Of a DNA stretch of 64,000 bases, positions 5,135 to 54,032 are shown piece after piece. The DNA comes from a virus, in IMG/VR virus record IMGVR_UViG_3300042893_001761, positions 1 to 64,000 of that record; one strand, written 5' to 3'. Positions within the stretch are counted from its first letter, which is position 1. Every line of letters starts with the position of its first letter. A program made the position numbers and the translations under genes. A model generated the notes under the pieces. It was not told where the DNA came from and did not search any database. It saw nothing but the letters and a program-made list of their open reading frames with translations.

Positions 5135-7660
5135 ATGAAATTCTATACTAATGTGAGCAGATGGGGTTCGCATATCCTTTACCGAGGTTATAATAACGGT
5201 AAGCGCGTAACCGAACGTGTGAAGTTCAAGCCCACCATGTATCTCCCTTCAAAGCATGAGAAAACCATCTGGACTGCGCTGGATGGAACTCCGGTTGAGC
5301 CTATGAAGTTTGATTCGATGAAAGATGCTAAAGAATTCATGGCTCCTTACGAGAACCTTGAATCCTTTAAGATCTATGGAAATACTCGCTATGTTGCTCA
5401 ATTTATTCAAGAGCGTTTTCCGGATGAAATCCACTTCGATCGCAATGTCATTAATGTTTCCACGCTTGACATCGAGGTAATGTCGAATGACGGCTTTCCA
5501 AAGCCCGAAGATGCGCTGCACGAAATTATTACCATTACGGTTAAAAATAGCATTGATGACGTATATTACGTATGGGGTACAAAACCGTATGATGCTGATA
5601 AAAAGCTAATTCATTCTCAAGTCGAATATCGTCAATTCGTCGATGAGCGAACGATGATGTTAGATTTTGTAACCTGGTTCGCCATGCCAAAAAACAATCC
5701 TGACATTATCACGGGGTGGAATAGCCGCGGCTTCGATATTCCATATATCGTGAATCGAATCATTTCAATATGTGGTCAGGGGACCGTAAATCTACTTTCG
5801 CCTTTTGGCAAAGTAGAACCTAAAGAGACCGTGATTAAAGGTCGTCCGGTGAAAATCTACGAGATTACTGGAATCTCTCAATTGGACTACATGGATCTGT
5901 TTAAGAAGTTTACAACTCATACGTATGGCAATCAAGAATCCTATAAGTTGGGACATATTGCGCACGTTGTTCTCGGAGATGGAAAACTGTCCTACGAAGA
6001 ATATGGTTCCCTGCATAACCTTTACGAGGAGAACTATCAAACTTTCGTGGATTACAACATCAAAGACGTTGAGATTGTGGATCGCCTTGAAGACAAACTA
6101 GGTCTCATTACTTTAGTTCTCACTCTCGCCTACATCGGCGGTGTAAATTATAACGATACGCTTGGAACTACGGCAATCTGGGATTCGATTATCTATCGAG
6201 ATCTTGCTCGTAAGGCAATTGCGATCCCACCATCCGTTAAAAACTTTAAGGCTGATTACCCGGGCGGTTATGTGAAAGAACCAAAGGTGGGACTTCACAA
6301 TTGGGTATGTTCATTCGACTTAAATTCTCTGTATCCGAATCTCATCATTCAATACAACATGTCACCCGAGACGATCACGTCTGAGACGACTCCAGGTATT
6401 TCACCCGATGTAATCCTGAATGATGTGCCGTTTGAACCTCATATGCCCGGAACCATCATGGCTGCAAATGGCGTTCATTTTCGTACGGACAAAGTCGGTG
6501 TAATCCCTCGAATCATTACTGAGATCTATGACAAGCGTGTTATCCTAAAGAAAGCCATGCTTCAGGAAAAGAAACGGCTCGAGACTATCGACAAGGGTAA
6601 CAAGGTTGAGTATTTTAGATGCGAACGAGAAATCTCTCGCCTCGAGAATCAACAGATTGCAGTTAAAATTCTTCTTAACTCACTCTACGGCGCCCTGGGC
6701 AATCAGTACTTTCGGTATTTCGATATGCGAATTGCCGAGGCGACAACTCTATCGGGCCAATTAGCAATCCGCTGGGCTGAAAAGGAAGTAAATCGTTTCC
6801 TAAATAAGACTCTTAAATCGAAAGACAAAGATTACGTTATCGCTATCGATACTGACTCATTGTATGTTTCAATGGATCCAATCGTTCAAAGCTTTGCTCC
6901 TAAAAATCCTGTTAAGTTCCTGGACGAATTTTGCGCAAAGGCTGTCGAGCCTATGCTAACTACATCCTACGATTTGTTGTCGAAAACGATGTTCTGTCCA
7001 ACAAATCGTATGGGAATGAAACGCGAGGCAATTGCGGATCGTGGTATTTGGACAGCAAAGAAACGCTATATCCTGAATGTTCACAATAATGAAGGTGTTC
7101 AATACGCCAAACCTAAGATTAAGATCATGGGAATCGAAGCAGTAAAATCTTCGACTCCGGCAGTATGTCGTGATGGGTTAAAGAAAATGTTCGAGGTCAT
7201 TATGACAAAATCTGAAGCTGAAGCTCAACTTGAAATTGTTAAAATCCGCGAAAACTTTATTTCATTACCTCCAGAAGAGATTGCATTCCCCCGTGGAGCA
7301 TCGGATGTTTCGGGGTATTCGAACAGAGCGGAAGGCGGAATTTACAAGAAAGGAACTCCGATCCATGTTCGCGGATGCTTGCTTTTTAACGATCAGATCG
7401 TGAAGCGCAGCCTTCAAAAAAAGCATCAGCTAATTCGTAGCGGTGATAAGATCAAATTCATCTATCTCAAAACTCCAAACCCGATGCAAGAAAATGTAAT
7501 TTCTTTCGTAGATGGTCTCCCAAAAGAATTAGGTCTCAATAGATATATTGATCACGATCTTCAATTTCAAAAAACCTTCCTTGATCCTTTATCCATCATC
7601 TTTGATTCTATTGGATGGACCATGGAAAAAACCTCGAATCTTGAAGAATTCTTCACTTAA
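5135..7660 (+). CDS. 43: family B DNA polymerase (T4 gp43-like)
   Basis: 841 residues, slightly shorter than T4 gp43. Exonuclease motifs: Exo I DIEVMS (~111), Exo II NPDIITGWNSRGFDIPY (~188) and Exo III YNIKDVEIVD (~308). Polymerase motifs: A, DLNSLYPNLI (~396); B, KILLNSLYGALGN (~511); C, AIDTDSLYVS (~570). The C-terminus keeps the DPLSIIFDSIGW-type clamp-contacting end of gp43 relatives. It is the replicative enzyme with proofreading and has its own promoter at 5101. Confidence 0.97.
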   Translation: MKFYTNVSRWGSHILYRGYNNGKRVTERVKFKPTMYLPSKHEKTIWTALDGTPVEPMKFDSMKDAKEFMAPYENLESFKIYGNTRYVAQFIQERFPDEIHFDRNVINVSTLDIEVMSNDGFPKPEDALHEIITITVKNSIDDVYYVWGTKPYDADKKLIHSQVEYRQFVDERTMMLDFVTWFAMPKNNPDIITGWNSRGFDIPYIVNRIISICGQGTVNLLSPFGKVEPKETVIKGRPVKIYEITGISQLDYMDLFKKFTTHTYGNQESYKLGHIAHVVLGDGKLSYEEYGSLHNLYEENYQTFVDYNIKDVEIVDRLEDKLGLITLVLTLAYIGGVNYNDTLGTTAIWDSIIYRDLARKAIAIPPSVKNFKADYPGGYVKEPKVGLHNWVCSFDLNSLYPNLIIQYNMSPETITSETTPGISPDVILNDVPFEPHMPGTIMAANGVHFRTDKVGVIPRIITEIYDKRVILKKAMLQEKKRLETIDKGNKVEYFRCEREISRLENQQIAVKILLNSLYGALGNQYFRYFDMRIAEATTLSGQLAIRWAEKEVNRFLNKTLKSKDKDYVIAIDTDSLYVSMDPIVQSFAPKNPVKFLDEFCAKAVEPMLTTSYDLLSKTMFCPTNRMGMKREAIADRGIWTAKKRYILNVHNNEGVQYAKPKIKIMGIEAVKSSTPAVCRDGLKKMFEVIMTKSEAEAQLEIVKIRENFISLPPEEIAFPRGASDVSGYSNRAEGGIYKKGTPIHVRGCLLFNDQIVKRSLQKKHQLIRSGDKIKFIYLKTPNPMQENVISFVDGLPKELGLNRYIDHDLQFQKTFLDPLSIIFDSIGWTMEKTSNLEEFFT

Positions 7661-7698: not shown

Positions 7699-8103
7699 AT
7701 GAAAACTAATTGGGTACACGATATCGAATATATGCATCGGAAATTTGGAGTAAATCCAATCGTACGCGAATTCGACAAAGAAAAGCTTAAAGCTTTCCTA
7801 GAGTTTCGCATTAAATTCTTGCAAGAAGAACTCGATGAAATGAAAAAGGCAGACAACGCCGATGATGTGGTTGATGCGCTCATTGATCTTTGCGTTGTTG
7901 CAATCGGTACGCTTGACGCCTTTGACGTTGATTCTGAAAAAGCCTGGGCTGCAGTATATGAAGCCAACATCACTAAACAAGTAGGAGTGAAAGAGTCTCG
8001 GCCAAATCCATTAGGTCTTCCAGACTTAATCAAGCCTCAAGGTTGGACTGCGCCATCTCATGCAGATAATGTAGGATTGCTTGGACCCATTTTCACAGAT
8101 TGA
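7699..8103 (+). CDS. mazG: MazG/HisE-like nucleotide pyrophosphohydrolase
   Basis: 134 residues. The metal-binding helices are visible as FLQEELDEMKKA (EELxE type) and VVDALIDLCVVAIG, with EKAWAAVYEANITK after them, as in all-alpha NTP pyrophosphatases annotated MazG-like or phosphoribosyl-ATP pyrophosphohydrolase-like. Such enzymes hydrolyse (d)NTPs or alarmones. The stop TGA overlaps the TTG start of the next gene. Confidence 0.78.
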   Translation: MKTNWVHDIEYMHRKFGVNPIVREFDKEKLKAFLEFRIKFLQEELDEMKKADNADDVVDALIDLCVVAIGTLDAFDVDSEKAWAAVYEANITKQVGVKESRPNPLGLPDLIKPQGWTAPSHADNVGLLGPIFTD

Positions 8104-10089: not shown

Positions 10090-10452
10090 ATGAAAGAATC
10101 CATCAAAGTCCTCCAAGAGTGTGCAGATCTGCAACTCAAAAAGTCCAATGATTACCAGAATGCGAATAGCACTATTCGGCAGGCTGATTATTACCCCCGC
10201 GGGGCTGCGTCAATCCTTGACGTCATGAACACAAAAGTACTGCGCATGCGTAGTGTTCTTGAGGCAATGGAATTTGATCCTAGCTATGCTCCTAACTTCG
10301 AGTCTCTCCAAGATTCTGCAAAAGATCTAATCAACTATTCGTCTTTCTTTGTTTCATTCTGCCGCGGCGGCATTGACGGACAATCCAAAGACCGCGACTT
10401 CCTTAACCGCAAAATTTCTTCTACTCGCAATGATGACACTACCCAGAGTTAA
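10090..10452 (+). CDS. DUF1599-like nucleotide-modification-associated protein
   Basis: 120 residues from ATG 10090, chosen because the upstream ATG 10069 overlaps the promoter -10 region. It reads QLKKSNDYQNANS, then RQADYYPRGAASILDVMNTKVLRMRSVLEA, then ESLQDSAKDLINYSSFFV: the K-x-x-DY / K-x-x-R / ES..D...DL.NY pattern of DUF1599, a family repeatedly found beside thymidylate synthase homologues in modified-DNA phages. It overlaps the next gene and is best seen as part of the modification cassette. Confidence 0.6.
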   Translation: MKESIKVLQECADLQLKKSNDYQNANSTIRQADYYPRGAASILDVMNTKVLRMRSVLEAMEFDPSYAPNFESLQDSAKDLINYSSFFVSFCRGGIDGQSKDRDFLNRKISSTRNDDTTQS

Positions 10453-11107
10453 TGATGTTCGTCAGCATTTTAAAGATGCTCTAGCGAACGGTGTCTATGT
10501 GACAGACAAGAGCGGCGTTAAAACCCTCGAGTTGTGTGGCGCATCATTTTTTGCAGATGAAGAATCCATCTTTGGCAAACTTAATTACGAGTACATCAAT
10601 GCTGAACTTCAATGGTATGATTCTCAGTCTCTGAACGTCAATGATATTCCTGGCGGTGCTCCTAAGATCTGGAAACAAGTCGCAACAAAAGATGGCCGGA
10701 TTAACTCAAACTACGGTTGGTGCATCTACTCAGAAACCAATCATAAACAATTTAATTCTGCGCGAAATGAGCTTATCGCAAATCCAAATAGTCGCAGAGC
10801 TATAATGATTTACACTCGGCCAGAGATGCACCGGCATTATTGCGAAGATGGTTGTTCCGATTTCATGTGCACGAATGCTGTGCAGTATCTTATTCGGGGC
10901 AATAAACTTCATGCCATCGTCCAAATGCGAAGTAATGATGTTGTTTTCGGTTACAAGAATGATCGTGCATGGCAATACATTGTACAAACCCGCCTTCTGC
11001 AAGATCTAAACACACTCGGAGAAAATAATTATGAAATGGGAGACCTTATCTGGCACGTCGGCTCGCTCCACGTCTATGAACGGCACTTCGCACTTATTAA
11101 TGGATAA
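10433..11107 (+). CDS. thymidylate synthase homologue, probable dUMP/dCMP hydroxymethylase
   Basis: 224 residues from ATG 10433 (ATG 10430 adds one Met). The catalytic-cysteine region is GCSDFMCTNAVQYLIRGNKL (~137-156), followed by VQMRSNDVVFGYKNDRAWQYIVQ, equivalent to the RS-x-D and N regions of ThyA, and WHVGSLHVYERHF near the end. The phage also has a ThyX (20527) able to make dTMP, which suggests this homologue makes 5-hydroxymethyl-pyrimidine monophosphate for DNA modification. It overlaps the deaminase gene. Confidence 0.75.
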   Translation: MTLPRVNDVRQHFKDALANGVYVTDKSGVKTLELCGASFFADEESIFGKLNYEYINAELQWYDSQSLNVNDIPGGAPKIWKQVATKDGRINSNYGWCIYSETNHKQFNSARNELIANPNSRRAIMIYTRPEMHRHYCEDGCSDFMCTNAVQYLIRGNKLHAIVQMRSNDVVFGYKNDRAWQYIVQTRLLQDLNTLGENNYEMGDLIWHVGSLHVYERHFALING

Positions 11108-11546
11108 TAAGTGGAAAGGTCGTTACCTTAAATTGGCACGCGAGATTGCTGGATGGTCGAAAGATCCTTCCACTAAAATCGGCTGTGTGATTATTGGGCC
11201 AAAGGGGCAGGTACTAGCTCAGGGGTATAATGGTTTCCCACGCGGAATCCAAGATACGCCGGATCGGTATGCTGATCGTCCGACGAAGTACAAATACGTG
11301 GTCCATGCGGAAATGAATGCCATATATAACGCAAGTTATAGTGGCGTCTCGCTCGATGGATCCATTTTGTTTGTGCATGGATTGCCAGTTTGCTCTGAAT
11401 GTGCAAAAGGCATCATCCAAGTTGGAATTAAAAACATTGTTATGCCATACCAGGAAATACCTGCAACGTGGCAAGACTCGTGGAATCTAACTCAGCAGAT
11501 GTTCGCTGAAGCAGGTATTACCTGGGAATTTGTCAAATTCGAATAA
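11100..11546 (+). CDS. dCMP deaminase
   Basis: 148 residues from ATG 11100, which overlaps the stop of the previous gene (ATGGATAA). Zinc motifs are HAEMNAIYN (~62) and LPVCSECAKGI (~88), the HAE and PxxC(x)2C signature of cytidine/deoxycytidylate deaminases; KDPSTKIGCVIIGP is also typical. It supplies dUMP for the neighbouring synthase homologue and ThyX. Confidence 0.93.
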   Translation: MDNKWKGRYLKLAREIAGWSKDPSTKIGCVIIGPKGQVLAQGYNGFPRGIQDTPDRYADRPTKYKYVVHAEMNAIYNASYSGVSLDGSILFVHGLPVCSECAKGIIQVGIKNIVMPYQEIPATWQDSWNLTQQMFAEAGITWEFVKFE

Positions 11547-11549
11547 TTT

Positions 11550-12710
11550 ATGGGACTCTCAACTACACACTATTACGATGAATTCCTTCGCTATTATCAA
11601 TTAGCAAAGGATCAACAGGAAAAATGCAACGTTTCATCCAAGCCTCCTTATGGGATGTTAACCCATGCTGAGTCGAAAATGGGTGATGCTTTGCTTGAAA
11701 ATGTTGAGCTCTACGATGTGGTTGAACGTAAATTTGCTGGATTCTCACAGATCGTGAATGATTGCTTTTATGGTTGGAATGCAGATCATCCCTATTGGAT
11801 GAAGATGTCATCAGGAAACCATACTGCCCAACGTAAGACTGTGGCGACAAGCTGGAATGGAAAGAAGTTCTCTCTTGCAGAATGGATGTACGTATTCATT
11901 CTTCACCGCGTAACAGGTTCTGCCATCAATTATGCGACGAAACCATCCGGTTACCATAATACATTATTGTTTAAACTCCATGCGGCTTCTTCAATTTCAG
12001 AGATGACGGAAATCGTAAAGGCCGAGAAGTCTCCGTTTTACACTTCAGTTGGATACCAGTTTCCTGCATTTCCAAAACCACCAGCAGGTTATAAACGTGG
12101 CGGCGATTACTACCTCTGCGAATTTGCCCCACGTTTGGCCACTGAACTTGCAGATTTCTTAGTTGCAGGAAACAAGAAAACGCTTCGCGAAATTGGCGAA
12201 TTCATGTTGAGCTGGAATCAAGCAAACGGAATGCGCAGGTTCGCTTTCCAATATGCAGCAGTTGTTGCTGACGTTGCTGATTGGTTTCCGCAATATGTTC
12301 ATCGAGATACTCCATTCTATTACGGTACCAATGCCATTGAGTGCATTTCTTATCTCGCGACGCCGACGAAAAAAATGAAGACTGAGGCTTTCCTCGATCT
12401 TGTCATGGAGAAGATTCAATCTGATACTGGAGCATTCCCATATAACGCAGAAGACGTGTGCTGTGACTTTATTCGTTGGGTTGAGAATTACGTTCGTCCA
12501 GGTGCGGCATACGGCCATCTGAACAGAGATAATCTTTGGTCATCACATCAGATTCACGATCACCCGTACGGCCGCCAGAAACCAATGCTCGAGCTGGGTC
12601 TCATTAAGTCATTTAACGATCTTGACGTGCATCCATCAGATGATTATGTCATTAGCCGTGCCGGAGTCACTGTAGAAAAATATAAAGAGCTCTGCAAAAC
12701 CTTAAAATAA
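11550..12710 (+). CDS. amino acid:DNA transferase / thymine pyrophosphorylase-like protein
   Basis: 386 residues, mostly helical. FSLAEWMYVFILHRVTGSAINY (~108-129) and FAFQYAAVVADVADWFP followed by DTPFYYGTNAIECISYL (~230-270) resemble the helical family described as alpha-glutamyl/putrescinyl thymine pyrophosphorylases or amino acid:DNA transferases. Those enzymes replace the activated 5-hydroxymethyl group of DNA uracil with an amine. The assignment rests on recall of the family pattern and on context between deaminase and PLP genes; a database search is needed to settle it. Confidence 0.5.
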   Translation: MGLSTTHYYDEFLRYYQLAKDQQEKCNVSSKPPYGMLTHAESKMGDALLENVELYDVVERKFAGFSQIVNDCFYGWNADHPYWMKMSSGNHTAQRKTVATSWNGKKFSLAEWMYVFILHRVTGSAINYATKPSGYHNTLLFKLHAASSISEMTEIVKAEKSPFYTSVGYQFPAFPKPPAGYKRGGDYYLCEFAPRLATELADFLVAGNKKTLREIGEFMLSWNQANGMRRFAFQYAAVVADVADWFPQYVHRDTPFYYGTNAIECISYLATPTKKMKTEAFLDLVMEKIQSDTGAFPYNAEDVCCDFIRWVENYVRPGAAYGHLNRDNLWSSHQIHDHPYGRQKPMLELGLIKSFNDLDVHPSDDYVISRAGVTVEKYKELCKTLK

Positions 12711-12711
12711 T

Positions 12712-13602
12712 ATGTCGCACGATACTCATGTCATAGACGGTTTAAATAAAGATGTTGGATTAATGTCCTGGAAAGAAGCCAAGGATTATTACCTTTCCCT
12801 TTGCGAAGGGTGGACTCCGTATAATCCGGATCCAGTCATTATTGAACACGAGGGTGTTCAAGTGGTTCGAGACGACCTCATCGTAGGAACGAAAACAAGA
12901 GCTGGAGATTTGCTTGTTGCAAAAATCAAATCGGATCATATCGTATATTCTCAGCCTCGAGTTGGACTCGCGGGAGTGTCGATTTGCGATACGGCAAACC
13001 GAATTAATAAAAAGGTTACTCTTTTTATGCCGTCTTCCAAAAGGATTTCAGTGCATCAGGCATGTTGCATTGAACGTGGAGCAACTGCGATCTTTGAACG
13101 TATTGCGGCAATGCCAAATTTAAATCGCCTTGCTGAAAAGTGGGCAAAAGACAATAATGCATTTTTTGTTCCATTAGGTCTAAGGCATGAGTATGCAACG
13201 GCCGGGATCATTCATGCTGCATCTAAATTGCCAGAACCGGATGAAGTCTATGTTGCTATTTCTACTGGCGTATTGACCCGAGCTCTTCAAATTGCCTGGC
13301 CCAATGCTAAATTTACATGTATTGCCGTAGCTCGTAATCTTAAAGAAGGTGAACTGGGTCGTGCCACCGTGATTAGCGAACCTCTAGATTTTCAAACTCC
13401 TGAAAAGCCAGAAAACGTACCGCCATTTCCAACAGTGGTCACGTATGATGCCAAAGTTTGGAAGTATATTCCAAAAAATACGGGCAAAAAGATTTTAATG
13501 TGGAATGTTGGAACCGATCCGGTTTTAAAAGATGCATCAATTATAGATAGAACGGATTCTTATAGAAAATGGAAGAAAGATGAACAATTGACAGAATTAT
13601 GA
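12712..13602 (+). CDS. PLP-dependent enzyme, fold type II (threonine synthase/ACC deaminase-like)
   Basis: 296 residues. DDLIVGTKTRAGDLLVA (~49) could hold the PLP lysine, AGVSICDTANRINKKVTLFMP the substrate loop, and YVAISTGVLTRALQIAW the glycine/serine phosphate-binding turn; all are looser than in housekeeping relatives. PLP enzymes act on amino acids tethered to thymine in hypermodified phage DNA, which fits its place two bases after the transferase-like gene. Reaction and substrate are inferred. Confidence 0.6.
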   Translation: MSHDTHVIDGLNKDVGLMSWKEAKDYYLSLCEGWTPYNPDPVIIEHEGVQVVRDDLIVGTKTRAGDLLVAKIKSDHIVYSQPRVGLAGVSICDTANRINKKVTLFMPSSKRISVHQACCIERGATAIFERIAAMPNLNRLAEKWAKDNNAFFVPLGLRHEYATAGIIHAASKLPEPDEVYVAISTGVLTRALQIAWPNAKFTCIAVARNLKEGELGRATVISEPLDFQTPEKPENVPPFPTVVTYDAKVWKYIPKNTGKKILMWNVGTDPVLKDASIIDRTDSYRKWKKDEQLTEL

Positions 13603-14597
13603 AAGTTTTAATTACAACTCCAATGGCTCCAATCTCGGAGCGTATTTCGTCTCACCGCGCGGCGCAGGCTGCAATCTATGCTGATCAATTAAGGCACTCT
13701 GGCCACGACGTTACTGTCAATTATGGCGGTAAGATCGAAGATTACAATGACTTTGAATGTATTGCCGTTTATCATGGTAATGATTGGGGCGGTACGGTGA
13801 ATTTGTTTGGCGGTGTAAAGCAGTATGGATCGATCGATCAGATTGTCCGTCTATCTAAATTCACTGGTAAAGTTTTTTCTCTCGTGATTGATTTCCCGAA
13901 ATACTCTGAGATGATTAAACCCCGGGTTGATAAGGAACCAGCATCACACCCGGATTGGAAGAGTGTCGACTGGACTAACTTGGCACAGATTGAAACATTT
14001 GCAACAGTTATCAATCCGAATAATCAATTCCTGAGTACTAAACTCGCATTTGGCGATTCTCACGCAATTTCTATGTATCGGCCCGGATGGAAAGTTAATT
14101 CGGTTCCCTTCAAGACCTTGCACGGTGCACTTAATATGGGTCTTGAATCATTTGTTCCGGATAATACGTTGGCATATTCTGAATTTGAAGTTTATTTTGG
14201 CAACATCGATATTCGCCACCATTTACTTCGCCAGCCGGATCCAATTAAAGCTACGAAGGCTCTTGTTGCGGAATACGTAAAGCAATGCCAAGATCTGTCT
14301 GAGAAAGGTAATGCAAAGGTTACAATCTGGGAACCGCTTCCAATCGAAAACGAATCTCGTAAACTACCAAAGACTGGGTATTATAAAGACGCTCCATTTT
14401 ACGGGAGCTGGAATGAGCGCAACGAAATTCGAAAGCTCTTTGTTAGGGAGCTGGAGGAAAACGTTAAAGGAAACGTTTGTGTATTTAAATGGGTTTCAAC
14501 GCTAATGAATCACAAAGAGGAACTGGACTTTGCCTATATGGAAAAGCCACAATCTGTTCATTTATCCAGAGAATTTTATCCTCACTGGAATCATTAA
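13599..14597 (+). CDS. SGNH/GDS-motif protein of the modification cassette
   Basis: 332 residues. TKLAFGDSHAISMYRP (~148) contains a GDS block like SGNH hydrolases, and SVHLSREFY near the C-terminus could supply the partner histidine. The N-terminus is MKVLITTPMAP then ISSHRAAQAAIYADQL. Gene start overlaps the PLP stop (ATGA), so it belongs to the same operon. It may add or trim a group on the modified base. The function is unproven. Confidence 0.5.
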   Translation: MKVLITTPMAPISERISSHRAAQAAIYADQLRHSGHDVTVNYGGKIEDYNDFECIAVYHGNDWGGTVNLFGGVKQYGSIDQIVRLSKFTGKVFSLVIDFPKYSEMIKPRVDKEPASHPDWKSVDWTNLAQIETFATVINPNNQFLSTKLAFGDSHAISMYRPGWKVNSVPFKTLHGALNMGLESFVPDNTLAYSEFEVYFGNIDIRHHLLRQPDPIKATKALVAEYVKQCQDLSEKGNAKVTIWEPLPIENESRKLPKTGYYKDAPFYGSWNERNEIRKLFVRELEENVKGNVCVFKWVSTLMNHKEELDFAYMEKPQSVHLSREFYPHWNH

Positions 14598-14636: not shown

Positions 14637-15686
14637 ATGTCATCATTACTCGCTAAACTAAAAAAGAATTCCCGCATTGATAGTTCGTCTACCTTGGATG
14701 AATCCAAGTTTTTCAATCAAGGCGACAACAGTGTTCCGACCGATGTTCCTATGATCAATGTTGCCCTTTCGGGTGACCTCGACAAGGGTCTCACTTCCGG
14801 TCTTACCGTCCTTGCCGGTCCATCTAAACACTTCAAGACCTCATTCGCCCTCATCATGGTTGCGGCGTATATGAGAAAGCATCCTGATTCAATCGTACTA
14901 TTCTATGATTCTGAATTTGGTTCGCCTCAGGCTTACTTCAAGACCTTTGGCATTGATACCAGCCGCGTGCTCCACTGTCCCATCATGAATGTTGAAGACC
15001 TTAAATTCGACATCATGAAACAGCTTGATGGAATTGAGAAAAGCGACAAGGTCATCATCATGATTGACTCGGTCGGTAACCTTGCTTCCAAGAAGGAAGT
15101 TGAGGATGCCATGAATGAGAAATCGGTTGCCGATATGACTCGTGCCAAGGCTTTCAAGAGCCTGTTCCGTATGGTAACCCCACATCTTTCGATGAAGGAC
15201 ATTCCGATTGTTGCCATCGGTCACACCTACAAGACGCAGGACATGTATCCCAAGGATGTTCTTTCTGGCGGTACCGGTCTCTATTACTCGGCAAACACGG
15301 TCTGGATTCTCGGACGCCAACAAGACAAGGATGATGACGGTCTCCAAGGTTACCACTTTGTGATTAATGTTGACAAGTCTCGCTTTGTAAAAGAAAAGTC
15401 CAAGGTTCCGATTTCTGTTTCTTTTGCCAACGGCGTTGAGAAATACTCTGGTCTCCTTGAGGTTTCTCTTGATGGTGGCTTTGTCACTAAACCGACCCAG
15501 GGTTGGTACCAAAAGAAAGGCGACACCGCCAAGTACCGTGAGAAGGATACCTACACGAAGGAATTCTGGAAAGACATTCTTGACTCGAAAGAATTTAAGG
15601 ATTACATCCGTACCCGCTATACCCTAGGCGGCGAAGGTCAGAGTGGTCTCACCTCAATTGTGGATGATGAAGCCGATGAATCCTAA
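14637..15686 (+). CDS. uvsX: UvsX recombinase (RecA family)
   Basis: 349 residues. Walker A is the UvsX-type GPSKHFKTSFAL (~61), Walker B VIIMIDSVGNL (~138), and VAIGHTYKTQDMYPK (~195) followed by SGGTGLYYSANTVWIL is typical of UvsX. It forms filaments on ssDNA for strand exchange and recombination-primed replication. The acidic C-terminus overlaps the next start codon. Confidence 0.95.
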   Translation: MSSLLAKLKKNSRIDSSSTLDESKFFNQGDNSVPTDVPMINVALSGDLDKGLTSGLTVLAGPSKHFKTSFALIMVAAYMRKHPDSIVLFYDSEFGSPQAYFKTFGIDTSRVLHCPIMNVEDLKFDIMKQLDGIEKSDKVIIMIDSVGNLASKKEVEDAMNEKSVADMTRAKAFKSLFRMVTPHLSMKDIPIVAIGHTYKTQDMYPKDVLSGGTGLYYSANTVWILGRQQDKDDDGLQGYHFVINVDKSRFVKEKSKVPISVSFANGVEKYSGLLEVSLDGGFVTKPTQGWYQKKGDTAKYREKDTYTKEFWKDILDSKEFKDYIRTRYTLGGEGQSGLTSIVDDEADES

Positions 15687-20102: not shown

Positions 20103-20546
20103 ATGCTTGCCGACGACGATAACGAACAGGAAAAAAACAAACCAGACTATTCCGAGCACAAGACCGACGTTCATACTAATGAACGCGTCTTGGAGTTTGC
20201 TCACGACATTATCCATTCTGCGCAACTGCAAAATAAGGACATTAAGGTGTCCATTGATTTTGATACGGCAATTAATTCAGGTCAAACACTTATTGCTGCC
20301 AAAGCAAAAATCGATTCTGATTTTGGTACTATAATGGTATTCCCTAATTTTGGAAAAAAGACTTCTTGCGCCTACATTCTGAACAGAGGTATGGTTAACC
20401 GTATGCTCAAGGAGGGTTTTTCCGAAGAGTTTATCCAACGGAATGGTGGCATTTACAGTGATGAATTTGAATTCACTCAGAAGAATGTAAAAATGCTTGG
20501 GTACTATCTCACACATAAAATCAATCATGATAACCAAAAAAGTTAA
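20103..20546 (+). CDS. hypothetical protein
   Basis: 147 residues from ATG 20103, one base after the preceding stop. An acidic N-terminal 25 residues is followed by a globular part with alternating strands. No motif recognised. It overlaps the ThyX gene by 20 bases. Confidence 0.55.
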   Translation: MLADDDNEQEKNKPDYSEHKTDVHTNERVLEFAHDIIHSAQLQNKDIKVSIDFDTAINSGQTLIAAKAKIDSDFGTIMVFPNFGKKTSCAYILNRGMVNRMLKEGFSEEFIQRNGGIYSDEFEFTQKNVKMLGYYLTHKINHDNQKS

Positions 20547-21219
20547 ACTAATCAGCCACTCCAAGATGGCAGATGGAATGAAACCCATCGGAATTGAAAA
20601 TTTCAGTATGGATCTTCAGGATCTTATTGCATTTTGTGCAAGAGTATCAAATCCAAAGAACCAGTTTAATACCGAAACTTCCGACAAACTCATTCGGTAT
20701 CTTATTCGCAACAAGCATTGGTCTCCTTTGGAGATGGTGTCTGCCTGCGTCGAAGTCAATACGACCCGAGATATTGCCCGCCAGATTCTCCGCCATCGCT
20801 CATTCTCCTTCCAGGAGTTTAGCCAACGCTATGCCGACCCCGTGAAGGAGTTGGACTTCGTAACGCGTGAAGCACGTCTCCAGGATGATAAGAACCGTCA
20901 GAATTCCTTGGATACCGCAGATGATGCCACAAAATTGTGGTGGGAAATCAAACAGCAAGAAGTAATTGATTTAGCATCAACAACTTATAAAGCTGCACTG
21001 GAACGTGGTATCGCTAAAGAGCAAGCTCGTTCTATTCTACCAGAAGGTAACACGGTCTCCCGTCTTTACATCTCCGGAACGCTCCGTAGCTTCATCCATT
21101 ACATTGAGGTACGTTCGGGCAATGGTACTCAGAAGGAGCACATGGAAGTGGCTCAGAATATGGCTGTCGCTTTGGCTCCCATCTTTCCGATGATTACCGA
21201 ATTTTCCGTAAATACTTAA
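20527..21219 (+). CDS. thyX: flavin-dependent thymidylate synthase ThyX
   Basis: 230 residues from ATG 20527. The ThyX signature RHRSFSFQEFSQRY (~88-101) is complete, with EQARSILPEG (~160) and RSGNGTQKEHMEVAQ (~195). It makes dTMP from dUMP using FAD, NADPH and methylene-THF. Its presence beside a ThyA homologue (10433) argues that the latter has a different product. Confidence 0.95.
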   Translation: MITKKVKLISHSKMADGMKPIGIENFSMDLQDLIAFCARVSNPKNQFNTETSDKLIRYLIRNKHWSPLEMVSACVEVNTTRDIARQILRHRSFSFQEFSQRYADPVKELDFVTREARLQDDKNRQNSLDTADDATKLWWEIKQQEVIDLASTTYKAALERGIAKEQARSILPEGNTVSRLYISGTLRSFIHYIEVRSGNGTQKEHMEVAQNMAVALAPIFPMITEFSVNT

Positions 21220-53661: not shown

Positions 53662-54032
53662 GGGCCTGTACTGGATTCGACTCAGTAATAGACTTATAGT
53701 AAGCAAGCAAGGTTCTCCGGATACCTTTTAAAAACTGGTAAAAAGTTAAACGGCATTAATAAAGCCCTCAGCAATTTCTTCGGTTTCGCCGAAGAAATGC
53801 CACTCGCAGCCTAAAAACTGTGATCGAGTAGATAACACAGATTCTCGCTAAGTGTTACACTCGTCATAAAAAGCGAGACCGTCTTGAAGTGGTGTACAAG
53901 ATGTGTATCCTCACCAAAACAATCATGATACAGTATTACGGTATCATGGCGACAGTTAAGTAGTACTAAGCTTGTAGAAAATTATCGGAAAAATTATTGA
54001 ACACAGGGGTTCAACTCCCCTCAGGTCCACCA
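53662..54032 (+). ncRNA. ssrA: tmRNA (transfer-messenger RNA)
   Basis: 371 bases. The tRNA-like ends pair GGGCCTG with CAGGTCC, followed by A and encoded CCA; the 5' side reads TGGATTCGACTC, as in tmRNAs, and the 3' T-arm is GGGG TTCAACT CCCC. The tag frame ends CTC GCA GCC TAA (Leu-Ala-Ala stop, 53803-53814). With GCC as resume codon after TAAA the tag is ALSNFFGFAEEMPLAA. An 8-bp hairpin TTCTTCGG/CCGAAGAA lies within the tag codons. It would rescue stalled ribosomes and tag proteins for proteolysis. Single-piece form. Confidence 0.9.

Follow-up and report, generated by a model that had tools for sequence, protein, structure and literature searches.

T4-like phages keep the genes that tailor 5-hydroxymethylcytosine (5hmC) in the interval between gp43 and uvsX (PMC6024577, PMC8056088). 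In T4 and CC31 a glucosylation module occupies this interval, with gp42 followed by bgt and uvsX and, in CC31, a second glucosyltransferase gene before bgt. An arabinosylation module lies between polymerase and uvsX in RB69 (PMC6024577, PMC8056088). Non-sugar tailoring of 5hmC has been described for 5hmC carbamoyltransferase phages (MetaGPA, PMC8670742), and CmoX/CmoY of S-B43 yield 5-carboxymethylcytosine-glycine, with an amino acid on C5 of cytosine (PMC12783734). Thymidine hypermodification relies on a different gene set, which in phage M6 comprises gp51 (the amino acid:DNA transferase ADDT), gp52 (a pyridoxal phosphate (PLP) enzyme), gp53 (radical SAM), gp54 (kinase), gp55 (HMUDK_hel) and gp58 (thymidylate synthase (TS)-like). 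Here we describe a six-gene cassette (10090-14597) in a 64,000-nucleotide stretch of viral DNA, hereafter the window, which represents positions 1 to 64,000 of the 66.5-kb IMG/VR virus record IMGVR_UViG_3300042893_001761. As a whole, the cassette is best explained as making 5hmC and then decorating it with an amino-acid-derived substituent, a reading to which we assign a probability of about 0.55.

A sequence-only reading of the window had proposed six overlapping or abutting genes for thymidine hypermodification. All six open reading frames (ORFs) were found on the plus strand in the listed order, and our analysis supports a DNA-modification cassette; however, cytosine is the most likely base to be modified. 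The cassette shares with the T4/CC31 module a gp42-type enzyme, the position between gp43 and uvsX and a BGT-like N-terminal domain in the bgt slot, but it has no glucosyl-donor domain and instead contains an SGNH domain, a PLP enzyme and a 386-residue orphan protein, x386; in addition, ThyX replaces T4-type td. With the M6 cluster it has in common the PLP family phrog_7093, a (candidate) transferase gene directly before the PLP gene and a TS-family gene. Unlike M6, it encodes a dCMP-type rather than a dUMP-type enzyme and an additional SGNH chimera, and it lacks the kinase, HMUDK_hel, radical SAM and a Pfam-detectable ADDT.

The carbamoyltransferase phages resemble it in having an Asp-type hydroxymethylase, dCMP deaminase and pyrophosphohydrolase together with non-sugar tailoring of 5hmC, but no carbamoyltransferase was seen in the cassette, which has SGNH, PLP and x386 proteins in its place. 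As in RB69, tailoring genes have been swapped in between polymerase and uvsX; however, RB69 uses a sugar (arabinose) and none of its tailoring genes was found in common. The S-B43 product does not start from 5hmC; instead, cytosine is carboxymethylated in the DNA and an ATP amide ligase takes part. The platform is the ordinary 5hmC platform of T4, whereas the tailoring set is new. If this is correct, amino-acid-type hypermodification from a hydroxymethylated base would not be confined to thymine, and the PLP (perhaps also the transferase) toolkit of thymidine-hypermodified phages would have been joined to the 5hmC platform in T4-like phages.

Hydroxymethylase and choice of base

The second gene of the cassette had been taken for a ThyA homologue freed to act as a hydroxymethylase. 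Its product is indeed a TS-family protein (above the Pfam cut-off), but its best structural matches were PDB 1b49/6l18/6a9a (E 3e-82 to 4e-80), the lowest value being that for T4 gp42, and the next best was thymidylate synthase among TS-family structures (E 4e-12). When aligned to T4 gp42, it retains the catalytic Cys (T4 Cys148, in SDFMCTN) and the equivalents of Glu60 (AELQWY) and Asp145. The equivalent of T4 Asp179 (Asn177 in TS) is Asp, encoded at 10961-10963 within FGYKND; Asp occupies this position in all 57 relatives, whereas the dUMP-type homologue of M6 has Asn. T4 Asp179 is the key determinant of the choice between dCMP and dUMP (PMC6400193). In addition, Asp at this position marks contigs of cytosine-modified phages, in which dCMP deaminase and pyrophosphohydrolase domains co-occur (MetaGPA, PMC8670742). 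A single TS-family gene was present in each large related contig (102-164 kb), with Asp in every one whose motif was read. Judged by these residues and matches, the protein is a T4 gp42-type dCMP hydroxymethylase, with a predicted dCMP-converting activity.

The genomic context is also of the T4 type. In the window, the gp45 clamp (1480), gp44 (2743), gp43 (5135), a MazG-like protein (7699), primase (8100), the cassette, UvsX (14637) and a gp41-type helicase (15983) follow each other, and the resulting order 45-44-43-...-42-...-uvsX-41 matches both the T4 map (44-62-regA-43-imm.1-imm-42-bgt-segA-uvsX-40-41) and the CC31 map (43-hyp-42-glucosyltransferase-bgt-uvsX-40-41). In CC31 bgt lies just before uvsX, and in T4 segA intervenes. 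The genes for x386, the PLP enzyme and the SGNH protein, located between gp42/deaminase and uvsX, occupy the bgt slot of T4, and uvsX starts 39 bp past the last of them. Given the gp42-type Asp, the sole TS-family gene, the gp43-uvsX location and the BGT-like domain described below, we strongly infer that cytosine is the modified base.

The same observations speak against thymidine as the target. In a pathway of the M6/ViI kind, the ThyA homologue would make 5-hm-dUMP, and the transferase and PLP enzymes would act on 5-hydroxymethyluracil (5-hmU). The M6 gp52 family membership of the PLP enzyme, the presence of ThyX and a possible ADDT-like nature of x386 would agree with such a pathway, but the invariant Asp, the cytosine-type context and the lack of matches to the 5-hmU kinase, HMUDK_hel and ADDT among the tested records make it highly improbable. 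The P-loop 5-hmU DNA kinase (PF18748), whose absence had already been noticed, was found neither in the 66.5-kb record nor in 10 relatives (M6, the positive control, was detected); its absence is expected, since this kinase belongs to the 5-hmU pathway. HMUDK_hel (PF18723) was not detected in the window or 8 relatives (ViI and phiW-14 controls found), and ADDT (PF18724) matched none of 16 group records, the window among them (M6, ViI and phiW-14 controls found).

A chimeric protein in the bgt slot

The last protein of the cassette had been described as SGNH-like. This description holds for its C-terminal half, whereas the N-terminal ~110 residues instead resemble the N-terminal domain of BGT. 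The AlphaFold2 (AF2) model, built with 38 homologues, had a mean confidence (pLDDT) of 89, and Foldseek matched the C-terminal half to GDSL/SGNH acylhydrolases and O-acetyltransferases (probability 1.00, E 1e-5 to 1e-3). All 38 sequences share Gly152-Asp153-Ser154-His155, Asp204, His208 and His321; position 202 is Asn in 33 and Ser in 5. Ser154, Asn202 and His321 thereby provide the Ser, Asn and His expected of an SGNH catalytic set.

Comparison with a T4 BGT alignment by hhalign gave E 2.6e-7 over 107 columns, co-linear from residue 1, and the N-terminal part alone (113 residues) gave 5.9e-8. Control values were 0.12 for the best of 30 column shuffles and 0.026 for the N-domain against the reversed profile. 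In addition, in two relatives the BGT hidden Markov model independently matched within the SGNH gene, with E 7e-5 and 9e-5; these weak matches were the only ones, and no independent BGT gene was detected in cassette-carrying records. Asp98, which aligns with Asp100, the reported catalytic base of BGT, is Asp in 29 of the 38 homologues. Generic Rossmann likeness was considered as the source of the match and set aside: the N-terminus of UDP-galactopyranose mutase gave E 1e-4 over 44 columns. The BGT match thus appears better than the Rossmann background, yet not worlds apart from it.

We also rejected a glucosyltransferase reading of the whole protein. A full-length Foldseek match to BGT had a probability of 0.95, but the TM-score was about 0.3 and the root-mean-square deviation 15. 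The C-terminal part showed no sequence similarity to BGT (E 0.56), so that no counterpart of the UDP-glucose-binding C-terminal domain was found and only the claim for the N-domain is kept. A profile search for solved relatives of this protein and of x386 returned nothing significant. In our reading, the protein combines a BGT-like acceptor domain with a putative acyl-transfer domain that replaces the UDP-glucose domain. This combination is a new domain architecture and, if the reading is correct, glucose at the bgt locus would have been replaced by acyl/amino-acid chemistry.

Such a protein suggests a simpler outcome, in which 5hmC is just O-acylated. The chimera would then be the terminal transferase, x386 and the PLP enzyme would prepare or deliver an acyl or aminoacyl donor or act elsewhere, and the product would be a 5hmC ester. 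This is the main alternative, although we consider it unlikely. It would account for the SGNH gene at the bgt position beside uvsX, for the BGT-like acceptor domain with SGNH in place of the donor domain, for the constancy of the SGNH gene, the highest within the triad (56/56 loci), and for the Aeromonas phages with gp42 and no BGT in which this gene occurs without x386. However, unless an unusual amino acid serves as the donor, this outcome would give no reason for the near-constant presence of x386 and an M6 gp52-type PLP enzyme.

Homologues of the chimera were detected in the cultured Aeromonas phages 44RR2.8t/31 (a 795-aa protein) and 25 (ORF225c), with 35-31% identity, and part of our reading is therefore testable there. 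Phage 44RR resembles the window in having gp42 and no BGT, but no x386 relative was found in the Aeromonas phages with the chimera, and their chimera genes are not adjacent to uvsX. The SGNH gene of 44RR follows a putative galactose transporter gene. As a separate observation, the chimera of 44RR/31 (L051:8001-10388) is fused to a domain weakly similar to HMUDK_hel; the matches in this C-terminal half (Pfam E 0.0036 and 0.0022, hhalign 0.01-0.03) are suggestive only, and the assignment was not adopted.

x386, the PLP enzyme and the proposed chemistry

The prediction of a PLP enzyme proved correct. The protein matched phrog_7093 with E 1.6e-35 over residues 22-267 (3e-73 for the other subtype), and M6 gp52, a gene product of a known thymidine-hypermodification cluster, belongs to the same family (E 2e-159). 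The Schiff-base lysine, Lys61 (12892-12894), is invariant in 26 cassette sequences and M6 gp52 (27/27), and a C-terminal PFP...YDxKxW...WN(V/I)G block is common to the cassette enzymes and M6 gp52. A profile match to cysteine synthases was also observed (E 2e-4). In M6 the ADDT gene gp51 is directly followed by gp52, and in the window x386 is directly followed by the PLP gene.

Several other arrangements of PLP genes were observed. Two subtypes (GTK and GGLK), which are 38% identical, have been exchanged between phages whose x386 proteins are 96-98% identical (L004-L008), and the GGLK subtype also occurs in the reversed order sgnh-plp at 15 loci. In Erythrobacter and Microcystis phages (L052-L054), the PLP domain is fused to or located beside ParB-like proteins and proteins annotated as DNA methyltransferases, a hint of a further modification system.

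x386 had been called amino acid:DNA transferase-like. Structural comparisons provide some hints in this direction: the all-helical AF2 model (pLDDT 65) matched two BFVD entries that are ADDT by name, A0A6J5L8T5 (ADDT domain-containing; 62% identity, E 3e-28) and A0A6J5LCY1 (14% identity, probability 1.00). The top PDB match was 3knt, the Ogg2 DNA glycosylase, with a probability of 0.85 but a weak E of 0.29. Amino acid:DNA transferases are reportedly proposed to have a DNA-glycosylase-like fold, so the glycosylase-type hints fit the transferase reading. In contrast, Pfam membership was not found; neither ADDT nor HMUDK_hel matched 17 and then 37 members (hhalign E 0.03-0.1), and both assignments were dropped. 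x386 had no match to any Pfam or PHROG family. We treat it as a candidate transferase, not assigned to the ADDT family, and as the least certain part of the cassette. At least 479 relatives were found in IMG/VR and none in 50,697 isolated-phage records; x386 would thus represent an orphan enzyme family, present in hundreds of environmental phage contigs and in no isolate record searched.

In many relatives, x386 is flanked by a 338-aa protein, x338 (L021:11149-12165), and a 143-aa uracil-DNA glycosylase (UDG)-superfamily protein (L021:9570-10001; PF03167 E 0.0015), neither of which occurs in the window cassette. x338 had no Pfam match and aligned to x386 with E 0.007 over 240 columns; that it is a paralogue is possible but unproven.

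The glycosylase fold match and the neighboring UDG-superfamily protein would also agree with the idea that no post-replicative modification takes place, x386 being a base-excision-type enzyme and the PLP and SGNH proteins metabolic or structural accessories that travel together by chance. We give this idea very little credence, because it is contradicted by the tight synteny with gp42, the M6-type PLP enzyme, the BGT-like domain of the SGNH protein and the bgt-slot position. Instead, x386, the PLP enzyme and the SGNH protein very probably tailor 5hmC. We lean towards an amino-acid-derived product, because the M6-type PLP enzyme accompanies x386 almost without exception.

From the computed gene identities, order, residues and domain make-up, we infer the following chemistry. 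gp42 would convert dCMP to 5hm-dCMP, the deaminase, MazG-like enzyme, Nmad1-like protein and ThyX would adjust the pools of dCTP, dCMP and dTMP, and 5hmC would enter the DNA through the T4-like replisome. After replication, the bgt-slot proteins x386, PLP and SGNH would place an amino-acid-derived substituent, instead of glucose, on the hydroxymethyl group. The chimera could bind 5hmC in DNA in a BGT-like manner and transfer an acyl group; x386 could attach an amino acid to the carbon of 5hmC, in analogy to the reaction of amino acid:DNA transferases with 5-hmU; and this amino acid could be decarboxylated or converted in some other way by the PLP enzyme. The likeliest order, offered tentatively, is that acylation activates the hydroxyl in place of a kinase, x386 displaces the acyl group and the PLP enzyme finishes the product. 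The acyl activation step is speculative and on balance unlikely. The complete kinase-free route, in which the chimera esterifies 5hmC, x386 acts as a new remote ADDT family that swaps in the amino acid and the M6 gp52-type enzyme tailors it, is quite doubtful. If it does operate, it would yield an aminoalkyl- or aminoacyl-cytosine, which is unknown from any phage, in many uncultured T4-like phages. A new nucleoside as predicted here would matter for evasion of restriction and Cas nucleases and for sequencing of environmental phages.

Several observations weigh against a cassette that decorates 5hmC with an amino-acid-derived group. x386 failed the Pfam ADDT model in 37/37 members, its alignment to ADDT reached only E 0.03 by hhalign and the confidence of its AF2 model is low. 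The likeness to BGT falls short of being overwhelming, and for single BGT relatives the signal varies and in some cases vanishes. SGNH proteins canonically carry a DxxH acid in block V, which is absent here; QSVH (318-321) replaces it in the window protein, so the catalytic acid must be located elsewhere unless the enzyme uses a dyad. Asp204 and Glu250 are invariant elsewhere in the protein. Because the window is only a fragment, and some of the related records may not be complete either, a kinase could possibly be encoded elsewhere.

Finally, the SGNH homologue of phage 25 (L217:2776-6047) adjoins a UDP-galactopyranose mutase (PF03275 E 5e-54) and a putative glycosyltransferase with weak BGT similarity, and because of these neighbors a sugar substrate would suit the SGNH relatives. 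The SGNH protein might accordingly form a sugar ester on 5hmC, using a sugar added by an unseen glycosyltransferase, with x386 and PLP making an amino-sugar-like or unrelated group. The galactose transporter gene of 44RR points the same way, but the cassette contains no sugar-nucleotide enzyme or BGT and relatives gave no independent BGT match, so that we consider a sugar ester very unlikely.

Gene arrangement, distribution and nucleotide-pool enzymes

Features of the window are listed in Table 1. Between neighboring cassette genes there are three overlaps (23, 5 and 4 bp) and two short gaps (3 and 1 bp), and for this reason the genes look translationally coupled. Starts were taken from the sequence; the gp42-type gene has an ATG at 10430 or 10433, the former being likely. 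x386, PLP and SGNH are under purifying selection, with dN/dS values of about 0.03-0.11 against close relatives. These values and the co-occurrence of the three genes in independent contigs indicate that the cassette ORFs are not chance ORFs.

Table 1. Positions, strand and supporting matches of the cassette genes, flanking landmarks and pool enzymes in the window
Feature	Position	Strand	Support
gp43-type DNA polymerase (upstream landmark)	5135..7660	+	phrog_262, reported E 0, 1033.5 bits
MazG-like nucleotide pyrophosphohydrolase (putative analogue of T4 gp56 acting on the dCTP pool)	7699..8103	+	phrog_671 E 1e-17; phrog_12019 (MazG-like) E 4e-9
Nmad1/DUF1599-like small protein (nucleotide-pool enzyme?)	10090..10452	+	PF07659 E 0.019 (under Pfam cut-off); phrog_18404 ('hydrolase') E 8e-12
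T4 gp42-type dCMP hydroxymethylase (makes 5-hydroxymethyl-dCMP; predicted)	10430..11107	+	PDB 1b49/6l18/6a9a
dCMP deaminase (pool: dCMP to dUMP for ThyX)	11103..11546	+	PF00383 E 3e-18 (above cut-off); phrog_174 (dCMP deaminase) E 2e-42
x386, orphan, candidate amino acid:DNA transferase-like, DNA-glycosylase-type helical fold	11550..12710	+	Foldseek hints
Fold-type II PLP enzyme, M6 gp52 family (tailors amino-acid adduct?)	12712..13602	+	phrog_7093
332-aa chimera: BGT-N-like Rossmann domain (~1-113) and SGNH acyl-hydrolase/transferase domain (~146-332)	13599..14597	+	hhalign, AF2, Foldseek
UvsX recombinase (downstream landmark)	14637..15686	+	phrog_97 E 4e-83
ThyX flavin-dependent thymidylate synthase (alternative dTMP source)	20527..21219	+	phrog_85 E 6e-69; PF02511 E 1e-42

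The cassette was found in hundreds of IMG/VR contigs. Among loci complete to the right of x386, SGNH was present in 56/56 and PLP in 54/56; among the 54 loci complete to the left, gp42 (42), deaminase (39) and Nmad1 (38) occurred within 6 kb. We found no description of the cassette in the open-access literature searched, although an earlier mention is possible.

The remaining assignments of the sequence-only reading concerned nucleotide metabolism. The dCMP deaminase was confirmed, with zinc motifs HAE and PVCSEC visible, as was the separate ThyX, by which dTMP can be made from deaminase-supplied dUMP; a search of 10 large group records, among them the window, detected PF02511 in 8. For the DUF1599-like label of the first gene, the Pfam match was sub-threshold, but the protein clearly matched phrog_18404. 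The N-terminal half of phrog_18404 matches the MazG-like protein and its Nmad1-like half the first cassette protein, so the two are fused elsewhere, which suggests that they may act together on the nucleotide pool.

Outside the cassette, the phage fragment carries 29 tRNA genes and a tmRNA gene between 47458 and 55545; the tmRNA gene (53662-54032; Rfam RF00023, 105.6 bits) encodes the tag GINKALSNFFGFAEEMPLAA.

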